DNA of 14,599 bases from Lachnospiraceae bacterium (GTDB taxonomy: Bacteria; Bacillota; Clostridia; Lachnospirales; Lachnospiraceae). Under the pieces are notes generated by a model. The model saw only the letters and a program-made list of their open reading frames with translations. It was not told the DNA's origin and did not search any database. Positions within the stretch are counted from its first letter, which is position 1. Each line of letters opens with the position of its first letter. The translations under genes were made by a program, and so were the position numbers. The DNA lies in NCBI GenBank assembly GCA_017964055.1, contig JAGCSS010000215.1:1-14599 (forward strand), read 5' to 3'. This document shows, piece by piece, positions 2,358-12,165 of this stretch.

Positions 2358-4070
2358 TCAGTCGGCGCGCGTCAGGCTCCTGATCCTCGCGATGACGCCG
2401 GGCACACACTCCGCGATGTCTCCCGCGGTAATGCAGTCCTCGCAGGCGTTATCCGCTGCCGCGTCTCCGGCCGCCGCATGGATGTATACTCCGCTGCGCG
2501 CCGCCTCGTAAGGCGTGAGTCCCGCGGTCATCAGACCCGCGATAAGGCCCGCCAGAACGTCTCCGGAACCGGCTGTGGCCATGCCTGAGTTGCCGTTGGT
2601 ATTGATATGCAAGCGCCCCGCCGATGCGGTCAGCGTACGGGCGTCCTTACATACATATGTTAATATATTATTATAAGTGTATTCATAGGCCGTGTCAAAT
2701 ATGCGGGCCTTTAAAACCTCTGCTTTTATGCCCGTCAGACGCGCCATTTCACCGATGTGCGGAGTGAGTACCGCAGGCGCCGCAAACAGTGCCGCGATCG
2801 CCCCCGGGCGCTCCCCTGCCGGACAGTCTCCGACCTTTTCAGAAATAAGGTTCAGCGCATCCGCGTCTGCCACGGTTTTCTTGCCCGACGCGAGAACGCG
2901 TCCGAGTACCTCCATTGCGGCCGCCGATCTGCCGAGACCCGGTCCGATGAGCACACAGTCCGCCCAGTCCAGTCCCGCAGTCAGCACATCTGCGTCATAT
3001 CCTCCGTCATCCGCAAAAAGCACACCTGTCATCGCCTCGGGCTGCTTATTGTTCAGGAGCCTTACGGTATCCTCGCAGGTCAGTACCTTCACCATGCCGC
3101 AGCCTGCCGTGAAAGCGGCGTGCGTGCAGAGATACCCCGCACCGGCACAGCCTTTGTTCCCCGCTATCACGAGCAGCTTGCCGTAGCTGCCCTTATTGCT
3201 CCATATACGTCTTTCGGGGAGTCTGACTTCACTCTCATATGAAAAACGCGTTACTGCATCGCCGTACTTTTCACCCTGCGCAAAGAATGCGGCGTCGAGC
3301 TCAGCATCCGTAGCTACCTCACAGCCGAGCGCTCCTGCCGCATCACCGGCATCAAAAACCTTACTGCCTGCCGCATCGCTCCCGTCATCTCCCGTCCCAC
3401 GGATAAGATCCGCTGTCTCGGGAATCCCCGCGAGCTCCTGTGCTATCAGCCCCGCAAAGGTCACCGCGCCGTGATAGCGCAGATGTGTATTATCCTCCTT
3501 GCCGTCAGGGAAAGCGGCGTATTTCCCAGCCGGAACATGCACAAAAAACTCCTTTGAAGCTTCGTCGCCGACCGAATCCATCAGCTCCCTGCTCAGCCTG
3601 TTGAGATCGATGCAGGGAACATGCTCGTCCCGTGCCAGCTTCAGCACGGCTGCGGGATACTCGCCGTGAGTCGGAGCGATCCCGCCCGTCGCGGCATCAA
3701 AATGTCTCCTCTCGAGCGGTGTGATCAGTATCGGCTGCGCGCCTCGCGTACGCGCCGTATCGATAAAGGTCCGCAGATTGTCGGTGTACGACCCGTAGGG
3801 TTCGGTGTAGCGGGCCGGATCCTTGTCCTTTTCATCGTTATGCCCGAACTGGATGAAGAGAAAATCTCCTCTGCGGATCTCCCGCGCTATGCGCGCGAGC
3901 CGTCCCTCATCCATAAAGCTCTTGGTGCTGCGCCCGTTCGCTGCATAGTCACGCACCTCGACGCCGTCCCTGACAAACAGCCCGAAAACCTGTCCTATGC
4001 CCGTCTGCGGGTATGAATCGATATAGTTACGGGCAGCCGTTGAATCGCCTGCCCAGAAAATAGTCTTCAC
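2358..4070 (-). CDS. Fusion of SGNH acetylesterase domain and NnrD-type NAD(P)H-hydrate dehydratase
   Basis: A single 570-aa reading frame holds two unrelated enzymes. Residues 1-220 are an SGNH/GDSL hydrolase closest to rhamnogalacturonan acetylesterase: block I AGDST (Ser10), block II ANGRSTKSF, block III FGHND (Asn78) and block V DNTHLRYHG (Asp193, His196). There is no signal peptide. Residues 221-250 are a Gly/Asp/Ala-rich linker. Residues 285-570 match NnrD (YjeF C-terminal, ribokinase-like fold), which uses ADP to dehydrate S-NADHX or S-NADPHX back to NAD(P)H: SNKGSYGKLLVIAG, IGPGLG, DADALN, LTPHIGEM and the catalytic GNSGMATAGSGDVLAG (Asp504). Bifunctional Nnr proteins normally carry the NnrE epimerase at the N-terminus; here an esterase takes that place. 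The GTG start at 4070 has AGGAG nine bases upstream. The gene follows the NUDIX-EAL gene by 35 bp and is probably co-transcribed. Confidence 0.85.
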   Translation of the reverse strand: MKTIFWAGDSTAARNYIDSYPQTGIGQVFGLFVRDGVEVRDYAANGRSTKSFMDEGRLARIAREIRRGDFLFIQFGHNDEKDKDPARYTEPYGSYTDNLRTFIDTARTRGAQPILITPLERRHFDAATGGIAPTHGEYPAAVLKLARDEHVPCIDLNRLSRELMDSVGDEASKEFFVHVPAGKYAAFPDGKEDNTHLRYHGAVTFAGLIAQELAGIPETADLIRGTGDDGSDAAGSKVFDAGDAAGALGCEVATDAELDAAFFAQGEKYGDAVTRFSYESEVRLPERRIWSNKGSYGKLLVIAGNKGCAGAGYLCTHAAFTAGCGMVKVLTCEDTVRLLNNKQPEAMTGVLFADDGGYDADVLTAGLDWADCVLIGPGLGRSAAAMEVLGRVLASGKKTVADADALNLISEKVGDCPAGERPGAIAALFAAPAVLTPHIGEMARLTGIKAEVLKARIFDTAYEYTYNNILTYVCKDARTLTASAGRLHINTNGNSGMATAGSGDVLAGLIAGLMTAGLTPYEAARSGVYIHAAAGDAAADNACEDCITAGDIAECVPGVIARIRSLTRAD

Positions 4071-4105: not shown

Positions 4106-7100
4106 TCATTCACCCGCGGGATCGCTGCTGCCGGTCTCTGTCGGGAACCACTTGTCCTTAGTCGCGGCAAAGCCGTCGCGGTTTATGTCAAACGCGCAGA
4201 GATTCTCGCTGAATGCCTCCGGTGCGCAGCCGAAGAGGATGCCGTTCGCCGAGAAGACCCTCATCTCGGTCGCGACATTGTCCATTGCTATCGTTGACTT
4301 TGCGTCACGTGCGCCCATGCCTATGGCCAGATTGGATTCAACGTCGATGAGTAGCCTGCAGTGACTGCACGCTATGGACAGATCGCCTCCTTCGGCTCCG
4401 ATCGCGGCCACATTCCAGCCTCTGACGGTTATATCAATGCCGCAGTCCCTGATGCCGATATCACCCGAAGTCCTGTCGGTCGATCCGATGCCGGTAACCT
4501 GATTTCCCGCGCCGAATATACGCAGCGCCGTATTGAGTATATGCGTATCCTGTTCTCCGCTCATCGAGCCTATCATCGTGCCCTTGTTGATCCTGACGTC
4601 GATCGCGATATCCATGTTGGTGATATGTATCGGTATCCTGTCCTGATACGAACCGATGCAGACGCAGTTCGAAGCGGCGCAGATGCTCTTGAATGCGCCG
4701 GAACGCAGATCTATCGCCCTCTCATGCGAGGATGAACGGCCGCCGATGCATATGCAGTTCTCACCGCTGATATTGATCTCGAGCAGGCCCGACATCTGTG
4801 AGATGATGCGTCCGAAGGCATAACGGTAGTCGTTTCCGATACCGAACGCGTTGGTGAAGGTAGGCGAGATCGTCAGATTGCCGCCGCCCTCGAGCGTGAG
4901 GTTCGCGCTGTCCGGAACGCGGATACCGTTGCCTGTAAATACATTGCTGCCCTCGATATTGAGCACCAGCGAGGCCTCCTTGCCCAGATCTATGATAGGC
5001 GTCGTGTCGACATCACCGATGCTGACATTGCGGATGGTGAGCCTGCATTTCGTATGATCCTTGATGCGGATCGATACGGGTGACTGGAAATCGGGATTGC
5101 CGACCAGCGTCACATCTCCGCCCGACAGCAGCAGTATGCTGTATTTCTGCAGAGAAAGGTCAACCAGCGAGAGAACCTTCTCGTCCTTTGCGATATAGAC
5201 CTTCTGTCTGGAATTGCCCGAGACGATGTCGAGGTTTGCCCTGCTGATCTCGGAGAGCAGCTGCGGAGGCAGTGACTGCAGCGGTCCTGCCTGAGGCTTT
5301 GCTGTATAGAAGCCCTGGATCAGGTCAACGCCCATGCGGATGGCGGCATACAGCTCCTCCGCCGTCTCAACGCCCTCTGCGAGCGCCTGGAAACCGTTGT
5401 CATGCGCGAACTGGATTATTGTATTTACGAAATGCTGCTTTCTGGGGTCCAGATGCAGCTCCGATATCAGGAATCTGTCGATCTTAACATAGTTGGGCAG
5501 GAATTTCAGCAGGTTCGTAACGTTGGAATAACCGGTGCCGAAATCATCTACCGCCACCTGGAAGCCGTAATCCCTGCTGCGGGTACCCAGAAACTCGATC
5601 GTGGTCTCCTCCATATCGGTCTCTTCGGTAACCTCTATAACGACCTTTTCGAACAGATCGCGATACTCTCCTGCCAGCTTCAAGAACTCCTCTTTTGGCA
5701 GATAGTGGCCCGGAATGCTGTTGATGAATACGAGGCGGTCGCCTATCTCGTCTTTCATCTCCCTCATTTTCCTGAGGACGTTAAAGAGTGTGGCGTGCTC
5801 AACATCGCCGAGCCTGTTCTCCTCGGTCGCGTATTTGAGCAGTGTGAGCGGCGATACTCCGTATTTCTCGGGCATGCGCATCAGAGCCTCATAACCTATG
5901 ACATCACCTGTCTTGGCGCTGATTATGGGCTGGAAATGATAATCTATATCGTTTTCATCAAGTATCTTGTTGACGAGGCTGCGAAGCTCGGGATCCTTCT
6001 CGCCTTCCTGCAGCGCGGCGTAACGGCTCTGCGGTTTTGACTCGAGAACCTCTCTGCTCCTGGCGGATATGCGTACAAGCACCTCTTCGGGGCTCATGCC
6101 CGAGTCGGGCGCAATGATCATCGAAGAGATCGCGATATTGAGCGAGTAATCCGTGAAGGAATATCTGTTGAAACTGTCGAAGCGTGCCGTTATCTGCTCC
6201 TTGAAGGAATCGGCAACAGCCTCGCCGTCATCCCCGGTCTCGGTCACGATCAGATATGTGTCCTCGTCTACCCTGGCGCAGATGCCGCGGCCGTGCAGCG
6301 CGTCCGCGATAAGCTTTGCGCTGGCATTGATGACTCCTACCGACTCCGAAGCGTCCCAGAGCGCGCTGATACGCTTAAAATTGACGAGCTTGACGCTGAG
6401 CAGCACAATGTTCCTGCCGCCCGAGGCAGCCGCATCGAGCATATTCGTGAGCAGATTGTAGAAACCGCTGCGGTTTAGGAAACCGGTCTTCGAGTCCAGC
6501 GCGTTGTCGGCGTCGGACGCGCTCTTCGTCTCCGCGACAAAGAAACTGAGCGCGATCCATGTGTATACCGAATAGAACCTGCCGAGCTCGTCGCGGCCCC
6601 TGTTCATGTACTCAAATGCCTGTCCGGGAGTCACGAGCATATAATCCCCTATGCGCTCGGTCTCCTCGGTGCCCGAAGAATTGATCACGGAAGTGTCCTT
6701 CAGCCTGACATGAGCGCATACTATGGCATTGCTCTCGTCGGTAAGCCCCGGTGAGCTGAAAAGCAGAGGATTGACAACAAAAAGCCTGTCATCCTTACTG
6801 AGCTCGATCGCGGTCTCCTCGCGTATCTCGCGCGCCGCGGCCGAAAGGATGGGGTTATCCGTCTCCAGATCGGACTTGTCGATAAGGCCTGCGGGGATAC
6901 TGAGCAGAGACCGTCCCGCGGGATACCTGTACTCGTGCGTGAGCAGGAGTCTGGGCTCCCTGCCGGGCGTATAAACGATCACGATGCAGCTGACCGCGTC
7001 CGGGACCATAGTCTTAAAAGACTGCTCGTCCTTCGTCGCGGCAATATCCCCGTCCTTACGCCTCGTGGCATTGTAATAGTGCCTGTCGGGCGCATATCTG

Positions 7101-7174
7101 TAGTCGAACACGTTAAGATAATTCGACGTAAATTCCGGGTAAACCATGTCACGCGTAATCTTCAGATCATCCAT
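4106..7174 (-). CDS. NUDIX - degenerate GGDEF - EAL - beta-helix-like repeat protein (c-di-GMP phosphodiesterase)
   Basis: A 1022-aa soluble multidomain protein with no signal peptide or TM segment. Residues about 60-215 form a NUDIX domain of ADP-ribose-pyrophosphatase type: HEYRYPAGRSLLSIPAG, the Nudix helix REIREETAI (Glu116, 119 and 120 present, the usual Gly replaced by Ala122) and SPGLTDE at 141-147. Residues about 222-360 are GGDEF-like, but the signature is RVDED (301-305) and the metal and GTP positions are changed, so cyclase activity is unlikely. Residues about 395-640 are an EAL domain with catalytic positions intact: EAL 429-431, Asn485, EVTE from 514, DDFGTGYS at 543, Lys564-Ile-Asp566, AEGVET (Glu600) and Gln620. 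It should hydrolyse c-di-GMP. Residues about 677-1000 are a repeat domain, probably a beta-helix. The start is the ATG at 7174 because GAGGTG lies six bases upstream; the ATG at 7192 has no ribosome binding site. Confidence 0.85.
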   Translation of the reverse strand: MDDLKITRDMVYPEFTSNYLNVFDYRYAPDRHYYNATRRKDGDIAATKDEQSFKTMVPDAVSCIVIVYTPGREPRLLLTHEYRYPAGRSLLSIPAGLIDKSDLETDNPILSAAAREIREETAIELSKDDRLFVVNPLLFSSPGLTDESNAIVCAHVRLKDTSVINSSGTEETERIGDYMLVTPGQAFEYMNRGRDELGRFYSVYTWIALSFFVAETKSASDADNALDSKTGFLNRSGFYNLLTNMLDAAASGGRNIVLLSVKLVNFKRISALWDASESVGVINASAKLIADALHGRGICARVDEDTYLIVTETGDDGEAVADSFKEQITARFDSFNRYSFTDYSLNIAISSMIIAPDSGMSPEEVLVRISARSREVLESKPQSRYAALQEGEKDPELRSLVNKILDENDIDYHFQPIISAKTGDVIGYEALMRMPEKYGVSPLTLLKYATEENRLGDVEHATLFNVLRKMREMKDEIGDRLVFINSIPGHYLPKEEFLKLAGEYRDLFEKVVIEVTEETDMEETTIEFLGTRSRDYGFQVAVDDFGTGYSNVTNLLKFLPNYVKIDRFLISELHLDPRKQHFVNTIIQFAHDNGFQALAEGVETAEELYAAIRMGVDLIQGFYTAKPQAGPLQSLPPQLLSEISRANLDIVSGNSRQKVYIAKDEKVLSLVDLSLQKYSILLLSGGDVTLVGNPDFQSPVSIRIKDHTKCRLTIRNVSIGDVDTTPIIDLGKEASLVLNIEGSNVFTGNGIRVPDSANLTLEGGGNLTISPTFTNAFGIGNDYRYAFGRIISQMSGLLEINISGENCICIGGRSSSHERAIDLRSGAFKSICAASNCVCIGSYQDRIPIHITNMDIAIDVRINKGTMIGSMSGEQDTHILNTALRIFGAGNQVTGIGSTDRTSGDIGIRDCGIDITVRGWNVAAIGAEGGDLSIACSHCRLLIDVESNLAIGMGARDAKSTIAMDNVATEMRVFSANGILFGCAPEAFSENLCAFDINRDGFAATKDKWFPTETGSSDPAGE
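4220..4870 (-). repeat. Eight degenerate 'IG' protein repeats, period 26-31 residues
   Basis: Within the C-terminal domain of the NUDIX-EAL protein a glycine preceded by Ile (Phe in the last copy) recurs at residues 780, 811, 841, 869, 897, 926, 952 and 982, giving spacings of 31, 30, 28, 28, 29, 26 and 30. Examples are FGIGND, CICIGGRS, CVCIGSYQ, VTGIGSTD, AAIGAEGGD and LAIGMGARD, each followed by alternating hydrophobic strands. The pattern resembles the AGIGGG-type repeats of extracellular beta-helix proteins of gut Firmicutes, but here it is in a protein with no export signal. The fold is inferred. Confidence 0.65.
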
Positions 7175-7186: not shown

Positions 7187-7214
7187 GATCATAACAGCAT
7201 TTGTTTATTCTATC

Positions 7215-10735: not shown

Positions 10736-10763
10736 ATTATAACTCATAAGTATTATATCACAA
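10736..10763 (-). promoter_or_regulatory. Possible promoter of the 86-aa gene
   Basis: The minus strand has TTGTGA (complement of 10758-10763), a 16-base spacer and TATAAT (complement of 10736-10741). The -10 is perfect but the -35 matches at only four of six positions. The -35 overlaps the end of the upstream gene, so the small gene may be expressed both with and without the cluster. Confidence 0.4.
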
Positions 10764-12165
10764 CATCCGCACACCGTCTGCCCCTGTCCGCACGCTGCCT
10801 CTGCTGCATGTAATAATCGGCGTATTCGTCGGTGATCAGTCTGTTCTGTATCATCTGCTCGAGATTGTCGAGGAAATCGTATCTGGACATGGACGTGTCA
10901 TCAACCATCTGCTGCAGGATCGCGCCGATGATGTTCTGATACTCCTGCTGCCCGATGACCTGGTCTATCCAGAGGAGTCTCGCCTCAAATGCGCGCTTGA
11001 AGTAGATGCTGTGCTCACCCTCGAGCTTAAGCGAATCATAGATATGCATGTCGAACCTGTACTTCGCGCGCAGGGCTCTCATGGACCTCGGAGTGACCGC
11101 GACGATTCCGCCGAGCACATACTGATTCTTGGTGTAGTTGGTGATGCCCATCCTGTTGGTGAATGAGTTGAACGTGGGCATCACATCCTCAAACTGCTCG
11201 TATATGCCCATATCGTTCCTGATACGGTTGTAGGCGTCGAGATTCTCCTCTTTGACCTCGGACTTGTAGGTAACGTTCAAAAACTGTGAGAGCGGCATGC
11301 TCTCGACTCTTTCGTTGCCCTCCATCAGCAGGAAATAAACTATCTTTTTCTTCGTCCATACCAGAGCCGGGGTACGGGCCGTGTCAAATTTCTTCGAGTC
11401 GTCTATGATGATCGGCACGAAATCCTTTTTGACCTTATAGCGGTGGAGCAGCTGTCTGTACAGAATGGGCGTGTACAGTGCCATCTGCTCGTTCTCGTCC
11501 CTGAGCAAACGGTCTATGCGGGCCTCTTTTGCAGCGCGGGCGTCACGCTCCGCGCGCGACTCACGTCTGCCCGGCGCGCCCGGATCCTCATCGCCGCCGT
11601 CCTCGTCAAAACTTCTCGCCGGACGTATATCGAGCTCGTCCCTGCCGGCTTTGGCCCTGCGGCGCTTACGTCTCCTGCGCCTCCTGAAAAACGAGAAAAA
11701 ATCGCCATCGGACTCATCGTCCTCATCGTCGTCAGCATCTGGGATCTCCTCTTCCTCGTCATACTCTAAGCTGAAGATCTTAGAGTCTCCGCCGACCTCT
11801 ACTTTCCTGTGCCTGATGCGCTTCGGGCGGTCCTCACTGCCGTCATCGTCGTAGCCGTCGTCGCCGTCCTCATCGGTCTCTTCGGTCATGCTCCTGCGGC
11901 GGCTGCCCGTCGCGGTACTGCGCGGACGTTCGTCCTCGTCCTCATCGTCGTCCCCGTCCACATCCTGTGAGACGAAATTCGCGAGGAATACCATCATCAG
12001 CCCGACTATGATCGCGAGAGCGCCCACGGCGAGCGCCCAGAGCTCATAAGTTATGCCTCCGTATATCGCGAGCGCCAGACCTCCGGCCACCAGCACAAAA
12101 ACTGCCAGAAGGAAAAACCTGGTCTTGGCAGAACCGTATTTGATCGTAGCTATCAGCCTACCCAC
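10753..12165 (-). CDS. Two-TM membrane protein with long charged disordered linker, function unknown
   Basis: A 470-aa protein I do not recognise. Two TM helices lie at about residues 17-37 and 41-64, with a very short turn between, so both ends should be cytoplasmic. Residues about 66-225 are low complexity: alternating acidic blocks (DDDEDEDE at 72-79, YDEEEE, DADDDEDDESD) and a strongly basic block of Arg/Lys at 161-173, flanked by FFSFF. Residues about 226-450 look globular (LYRQLLHRYKVKKDF, TPALVWTKKKIVYFLL, SFTNRMGITNYTKNQY), and the tail is Gln/Arg-rich. The start is GTG at 12165 with AAGGAG placed ideally upstream. It lies 49 bp after the AroC homologue. The membrane anchor plus charged tether suggests holding a cytosolic domain near the membrane. 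Confidence 0.75.
   Translation of the reverse strand: MGRLIATIKYGSAKTRFFLLAVFVLVAGGLALAIYGGITYELWALAVGALAIIVGLMMVFLANFVSQDVDGDDDEDEDERPRSTATGSRRRSMTEETDEDGDDGYDDDGSEDRPKRIRHRKVEVGGDSKIFSLEYDEEEEIPDADDDEDDESDGDFFSFFRRRRRRKRRRAKAGRDELDIRPARSFDEDGGDEDPGAPGRRESRAERDARAAKEARIDRLLRDENEQMALYTPILYRQLLHRYKVKKDFVPIIIDDSKKFDTARTPALVWTKKKIVYFLLMEGNERVESMPLSQFLNVTYKSEVKEENLDAYNRIRNDMGIYEQFEDVMPTFNSFTNRMGITNYTKNQYVLGGIVAVTPRSMRALRAKYRFDMHIYDSLKLEGEHSIYFKRAFEARLLWIDQVIGQQEYQNIIGAILQQMVDDTSMSRYDFLDNLEQMIQNRLITDEYADYYMQQRQRADRGRRCADVVI

Follow-up and report, generated by a model that had tools for sequence, protein, structure and literature searches.

A gene on the minus strand of a 14,599-nucleotide stretch of DNA from a rumen Lachnospiraceae bacterium (contig JAGCSS010000215.1; the whole stretch is referred to here as the window) encodes a protein in which a Nudix module, a degenerate GGDEF domain, an EAL domain and a predicted right-handed beta-helix follow one another in a single chain. 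The reading that we favor, at a probability of about 0.5, is that this protein is an active cyclic diguanylate (c-di-GMP) phosphodiesterase with a competent Nudix domain as its input module, to which a nucleoside diphosphate linked to another moiety (NDP-X) would bind and by which it would probably be hydrolyzed. In the comparison with its homologues, it was the beta-helix rather than the Nudix domain that always accompanied EAL; Nudix proved to be exchangeable with other N-terminal modules.

Domain organization of the protein

The coding sequence (4106..7174, minus strand, as are all the parts described below) specifies 1022 amino acids from its probable start, and its frame is also open upstream to an ATG at 7192. 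As a sequence-only reading of this gene had proposed, the NUDIX, GGDEF and EAL domains lie within one open frame, and all of them exceeded the Pfam cut-offs (for EAL, 169.3 bits against a cut-off of 31.3; for NUDIX, 31.0 bits against 21.1). The N-terminal Nudix module (residues 7-221, 6530..7174) was recognized by Pfam and by sequence matches in the PDB, and resembles ADP-ribose (adenosine diphosphate ribose) pyrophosphatases; it contains the Nudix helix REIREET (residues 121-127, 6812..6832) and the loop SPGLTDE (residues 147-153, 6734..6754). It is followed by the degenerate GGDEF domain (residues 231-375, 6068..6502), by the EAL phosphodiesterase domain (residues 411-633, 5294..5962) and by the C-terminal parallel beta-helix (residues 663-1020, 4133..5206). 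No membrane segment was found in the protein, whose highest 19-residue hydropathy was 1.25, versus 2.7 for a 470-amino-acid neighbor encoded in the window; thus, it is apparently cytosolic.

The GGDEF domain is a remnant, as had been suspected. Inspection of the sequence showed RVDEDT in place of R-GGDEF (6257-6274), so that the active-site motif GGDEF/GGEEF is absent (VDEDT instead), and the D-x-D metal-binding stretch reads VKLVN. This motif is degenerate in all 14 members that combine Nudix and GGDEF, with AYNEF, AYDEF and SHDEF in the early branches of the tree described below and GKNEF in one sequence (P0042), and several outer relatives retain GGDEF, GSDEF or GADEF. In addition, 5 of the 19 listed Nudix-bearing members lack the domain, and a short linker alone separates Nudix from EAL in them. 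A working cyclase was ruled out by the loss of the metal and GTP (guanosine triphosphate) motifs; the role of GTP-binding relay that had been suggested for the remnant was discarded because of these same losses and the absence of the domain in those five members.

A constant EAL-beta-helix core with variable N-terminal modules

The search yielded 238 homologues, and the architectures were read for the 120 listed. EAL and beta-helix were present together in all 120, and EAL was also found in each of the 55 proteins matching the beta-helix region, in a search that covered proteins of ~565-1800 amino acids. The order Nudix-GGDEF-EAL-beta-helix occurs in 14 of the listed homologues (the window protein and 13 other protein clusters) and Nudix-EAL-beta-helix in another five; GGDEF was scored by BLAST against the corresponding domain of the window protein, which undercounts it in distant sequences. 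The N-terminal module differs across the family, being Nudix, GNAT, a LacI-type binding domain or none: the place that Nudix occupies here is taken by a LacI-type Peripla_BP domain in P0065 and by GNAT in P0041 and P0074. A GNAT acetyltransferase domain N-terminal to the EAL-beta-helix core was observed in P0041, P0074-P0076, P0079 and P0121-P0123.

Nine positions expected to hold metal and catalytic residues, which we take to be those needed by EAL enzymes, are invariant in 131 of 131 sequences, in agreement with the initial observation that the catalytic residues are in place; the EAL domain looks like an active c-di-GMP phosphodiesterase. The repeat domain noticed at the C-terminus is indeed present, and corresponds to a predicted single-stranded right-handed beta-helix (pectate-lyase-like fold), matching known examples of similar size. 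The fold matches were tied among adhesins, tailspikes, epimerases and lyases, and Foldseek alone gave no beta-helix match at E ≤ 0.001. Its identification with one known enzyme was dropped because the matches were tied among such unlike proteins. Judging by these matches, the fold has been described above all in phage proteins and in proteins that are secreted or located at the cell surface, which makes its fixed association with an EAL enzyme that has no membrane segment a second puzzle.

Conservation of the Nudix module

The residues R121, E122, E125 and E126 of the Nudix helix, as well as P148, G149, T151, D152 and E153 of the SPGLTDE loop, are identical in the 19 fused and the 12 free Nudix sequences compared. 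We assume that E122, E125 and E126 are the metal-binding glutamates of the Nudix helix, and that the loop is the motif typical of ADP-ribose pyrophosphatases, so that both features named in the sequence-only reading were corroborated. These glutamates are retained in 19 of the 20 attached Nudix copies, the exception being P0042. The ratio of nonsynonymous to synonymous substitution rates (omega) between the window gene and that of genome G005 was 0.08 for Nudix, 0.10 for GGDEF, 0.03 for EAL and 0.09 for the beta-helix; these values come from this pair alone, the remaining pairs being near synonymous saturation or without an estimate. The Nudix domain is, by this comparison, under strong purifying selection, and its residues make it look catalytically competent.

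Among the PDB matches listed for the protein (60 of 76), those in the Nudix region included seven entries named as ADP-ribose pyrophosphatases, 8wv3, 9jax, 1v8i, 1v8v, 1v8u, 1mk1 and 5i8u, with E-values of 5.2e-6 to 3.5e-4; this region also matched 2yvm (MutT/nudix family protein) and 8zr8 (methanol dehydrogenase activator). A winged helix-turn-helix was found neither in the Pfam scan nor in the NCBIfam matches listed (25 of 26).

Gain, loss and distribution of the Nudix module

The history of the module was followed in a tree of the EAL-beta-helix core with 91 of the 131 sequences, in which the LacI-type and "1070 aa" rows had been thinned. All the Nudix-bearing rows fell within one clade of 42 rows, and the GNAT form P0041 was nested in this clade, away from the other GNAT members. 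In a second core tree, made of these 42 rows plus six outgroup rows, the successive early branches were P0036, P0025, P0042, P0012, P0007 with P0011, P0005 and P0003; their forks were all starred except that of P0025 (99/76), and each of them has a Nudix module, which in P0042 is decayed. The clade also encloses 21 rows without Nudix; they require five changes of state, two of them forced by starred branches. In P0042, residues 1-120 correspond to a Nudix remnant (profile match with E 2e-5 over 130 proteins) that has two of the three glutamates replaced and lacks the N-terminal part of the module, and is still attached to GGDEF-EAL-beta-helix.

Free Nudix relatives share 39-52% identity with the module. 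From 2730 matches to free Nudix sequences, 120 were listed; 20 of these, together with six taken from loci, were included in a Nudix tree, where the fused copies formed one clade of 19 versus the 26 free sequences sampled (support 100/99). These topologies suggest that Nudix joined the core once, apparently from the free-standing Nudix family of Lachnospiraceae, and one gain followed by several losses would be the simplest reading; the module may also have been exchanged among close relatives, since P0006 sits among Nudix-less rows.

Within the genus, a set of 24 genomes was examined, for which the match list ends at about E 1e-15 and weaker copies do not appear. The Nudix-GGDEF-EAL-beta-helix frame is open in G000, G005, G010 and G016, and the form without GGDEF is present in G015, G018 and G019; the loci L021 and L022 proved identical with the contigs of G005 and G016 and add no evidence. 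Altogether, a fused Nudix occurs in eight of these genomes, a free one in five and both in none, an absence of overlap that is not significant (P about 0.10). No copy, fused or free, appears in the match lists of G001, G008 and G022, and for G022 the family-wide search described next showed none either; G003, whose second EAL-beta-helix copy ends at a contig edge, was left out of this count of Nudix-less genomes. In a family-wide set of 299 genomes, nearly one per genus, 16 have a Nudix match at E ≤ 1e-25, which is free in 15 and fused only in the window's own genome. The beta-helix region was matched in 18 of the 299 at E ≤ 1e-15.

A proposed mechanism and the evidence for and against it

We propose that the Nudix domain would bind an NDP-X compound, for which ADP-ribose is the first candidate given the resemblance to this subfamily. 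Occupancy by the ligand could shift the arrangement of a Nudix dimer, and this change might be transmitted through the linker and the dead GGDEF domain to the EAL dimer, as the precedent of Bd1971 (see below) suggests; EAL would then cleave c-di-GMP to pGpG at a rate that depends on the ligand, its activity being predicted from its residues. Because its glutamates are kept, Nudix probably hydrolyzes its own ligand and would in this way end its own signal. The beta-helix, as the fixed partner of EAL, would probably provide a docking or oligomerization surface. If this is true, an intact catabolic enzyme fold would be the input to a c-di-GMP phosphodiesterase, linking c-di-GMP to a metabolic nucleotide. 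A stronger version of this idea is rather doubtful: the module would be a self-terminating timer that binds a nucleotide derived from nicotinamide adenine dinucleotide (NAD), either ADP-ribose or a relative, switches EAL while bound and destroys the nucleotide. In that case c-di-GMP breakdown would follow NAD turnover, and enzyme folds (Nudix, GNAT) would be swapped on a fixed EAL-beta-helix core.

Several observations weigh against the input-module proposal. In the REUXEEXGU half of the Nudix box, R121, E122, E125 and E126 are present and the final glycine is A128 in the window; this position is glycine in 18 of the 19 fused copies, and alanine in the window species and G005. The GX5EX7 half is unmatched, with a longer loop and asparagine in place of the glutamate eight positions before the arginine, a glutamate that is also missing in the 12 free Nudix relatives aligned. 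A proline 15 residues past the last glycine of the box, the rule for ADP-ribose pyrophosphatases (cited in PMC4629899), was not found, the prolines being at +14 (P142) and +20 (P148). On account of these three departures ADP-ribose is a candidate and not a conclusion. Furthermore, a free Nudix relative used as the sole query retrieved no solved structure at E 1e-3, and no gene neighbor outside the closest species supports a theme of NAD or ADP-ribose. Structure prediction did not give a confident arrangement of the domains (AlphaFold2 predicted template modeling score, 0.45). In one further genus genome, G023 (locus L028, contig C226, 9-3053), the domains are in the full order, and the frame is interrupted ~716 codons in by a TAG that lies within the beta-helix part. 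Finally, catalysis is impaired in the Nudix domains known to be sensors (NrtR) and seemingly not in that of the window protein, which fits a working enzyme as well as a sensor.

This last point leads to the possibility that the protein is a bifunctional enzyme without crosstalk, in which Nudix would be a house-cleaning hydrolase sharing one chain with a phosphodiesterase. This explanation is less probable than the input module, although it would account for the catalytic residues kept in the 19 fused copies compared and for the genus pattern of fused or free copies, which looks as if the fused form had replaced the free one (not significant, as stated above). We gave more weight to a sensor because Nudix is in the input position, where relatives have ligand-binding or GNAT folds, and because it has been lost or has decayed among sequences whose EAL residues are constant throughout. 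Likewise, a regulatory rather than a housekeeping use is favored by the repeated loss of Nudix, by the three genomes in which no copy was seen, free ones included, and by the decayed copy that stays attached in P0042.

An improbable alternative is that Nudix is kept mainly as a dimerization domain, a scaffold for the active EAL dimer for which the substrate would be irrelevant. ADP-ribose pyrophosphatases are dimers, P0042 retains a decayed Nudix, and the GGDEF-EAL-beta-helix members manage without it, all of which agree with a scaffold; nonetheless, a scaffold would need neither the three metal-binding glutamates and the SPG-TDE loop nor an omega of 0.08. The family, with its core of EAL and beta-helix combined with Nudix, GNAT, a LacI-type domain or nothing, constitutes a natural experiment in which the effects of these modules can be compared directly.

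Long-frame relatives and possible outputs

In the genus set, a close type of EAL-beta-helix gene occurs in 12 of the 24 genomes and a distant, long-frame type (frames of 1294-1606 amino acids, 30-37% identity) in eight, and no genome has both (P about 0.0007 if they were independent, kinship being ignored). These types seem to replace each other in a single role, of which the input, and perhaps the output too, has changed. In six of the eight long-frame genomes a PF00437 match of the size of PilB lies no more than 4 kb from that to EAL-beta-helix; neighbors were read fully for G009 and G013, and, PF00437 apart, both the naming of pilus genes and the typing of the N-terminal module in these copies were done by eye. 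At two of these loci, L052 (G013) and L053 (G009), the long-frame EAL-beta-helix genes adjoin pilB/pilT-like genes. From these loci, a control of type IV pili by c-di-GMP in Lachnospiraceae is possible.

This proximity, and the constant co-occurrence of EAL with the beta-helix in the lists examined, could indicate a localized phosphodiesterase. The beta-helix would then be decisive by docking EAL on a partner, perhaps the type IV pilus in the case of the long-frame relatives, and whatever module stands at the N-terminus would only fine-tune the activity. We regard this as very unlikely for the window protein, given that the beta-helix has no known partner and that a PF00437 match above 400 bits was present in only one of the eight Nudix-bearing genomes (G018), these genomes being incomplete. 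The notion that separate Nudix and GGDEF-EAL genes were joined by an assembly or frameshift error has next to nothing in its favor: although the metagenome-assembled genome to which the window belongs is fragmented (408 contigs, 65% complete), this notion is refuted by the recurrence of the fusion in 13 further protein clusters, by the open frames of G005, G010 and G016, and by the low omega of every domain.

A type IV pilus output was not retained for the window protein, its support being confined to the long-frame relatives: PF00437 gave no match above 400 bits in the genome of the window, and no pilus-type gene was found among the window's neighbors (Pfam was used for five of them, and the others were inspected by eye). 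The c-di-GMP machinery of this genome comprises 22 GGDEF matches (21 over the cut-off), six EAL matches and one PilZ. Given this PilZ and the flagellin found in 24 of 24 genus genomes, motility is possible as the output.

Comparison with known systems

GGDEF-EAL phosphodiesterases such as PA0575 and DosP, which gave the best fold matches, share with the window protein the tandem GGDEF-EAL core and differ in their input domains; the structure of PA0575 (5m3c) has GTP bound according to its title, whereas the window GGDEF has lost the GTP motifs. FimX-type GGDEF-EAL proteins regulate type IV pili, and the EAL domain of FimX is degenerate. The likeness to FimX lies in the long-frame relatives close to PilB-type genes; in contrast, the window EAL is intact, and its genome lacks the strong PF00437 match. 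The free-standing Nudix hydrolases of Lachnospiraceae, some of them named "ADP-ribose pyrophosphatase", share the identity given above and the same catalytic motifs with the window Nudix, but are unfused proteins of about 220 amino acids.

The following comparisons refer to the available parts of the papers cited. Bd1971 of Bdellovibrio is a cAMP-gated (cyclic adenosine monophosphate) EAL enzyme in which an N-terminal nucleotide sensor holds EAL active (PMC6717892). This sensor is a domain of the cNMP/CRP type (cNMP, cyclic nucleotide monophosphate), and Nudix, GGDEF or beta-helix are not mentioned in the part available; its activity and gating were demonstrated, and are predictions in the case of the window protein. 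The Nudix domains of NrtR regulators sense ADP-ribose (PMC4666351, PMC6800001). In NrtR and AraR, as proposed here, the Nudix fold is a ligand-binding input, and ADP-ribose is the ligand of several NrtRs; the differences are that their output is a winged helix-turn-helix acting on DNA and that their Nudix motif is impaired (PMC4666351, PMC6800001). The motif of the window Nudix is intact in its REUXEE half, and among the attached copies the impairment was found only in P0042. The conservation of the putative catalytic residues in the input module is thus unlike both Bd1971 and NrtR.

Other reports bring Nudix proteins and c-di-GMP close to each other. At the CdgC locus of Azospirillum a putative Nudix hydrolase gene is directly downstream of the diguanylate cyclase gene cdgC, but these are separate genes, the partner is a cyclase rather than a phosphodiesterase, and the passage concerned states no functional link between them (PMC8564387). 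A review of H-NOX describes Nudix proteins associated with H-NOX genes, none known to act on c-di-GMP as far as its available part goes (PMC8738867), and the word "Nudix" does not occur in the accessible main text of a 2022 review of c-di-GMP sensory domains (PMC8846402). In Salmonella, c-di-GMP acts on NAD synthesis through NadR, which was stated in 2025 to be the first such connection (PMC12421817); its direction, from c-di-GMP to NAD synthesis, is the opposite of the one suggested here. The architecture had seemed unfamiliar from the outset, and no description of Nudix-EAL or EAL-beta-helix proteins was found in the portions seen of the open-licence literature, to which this weak evidence is limited. 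Each of the parts, like the general concept, was known before; what is new, as far as we found, is their combination and the family of exchangeable modules.

Neighboring genes

Among the 19 loci, several of which are short contigs, the gene order of the window is kept only by that of G005 (93% identical). Among the Nudix-bearing genomes G010, G015, G018 and G019, whose flanks are present, only G015 and G019 share neighbors. At 2358-4070 (minus strand), 35 bp downstream of the Nudix-EAL gene, there is a fusion of a GDSL-type esterase (PF13472) and an NAD(P)H-hydrate dehydratase (PF01256), also present in G005; NAD(P)H-hydrate dehydratase is usually accompanied by an epimerase domain. As a clue to NAD this neighbor was given no weight, as it was not found beside other copies. 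The 470-amino-acid neighbor mentioned above (10753-12165, minus strand) has a hydrophobic N-terminus followed by a long, charged, low-complexity stretch, has no Pfam match, and is 93% identical in G005.

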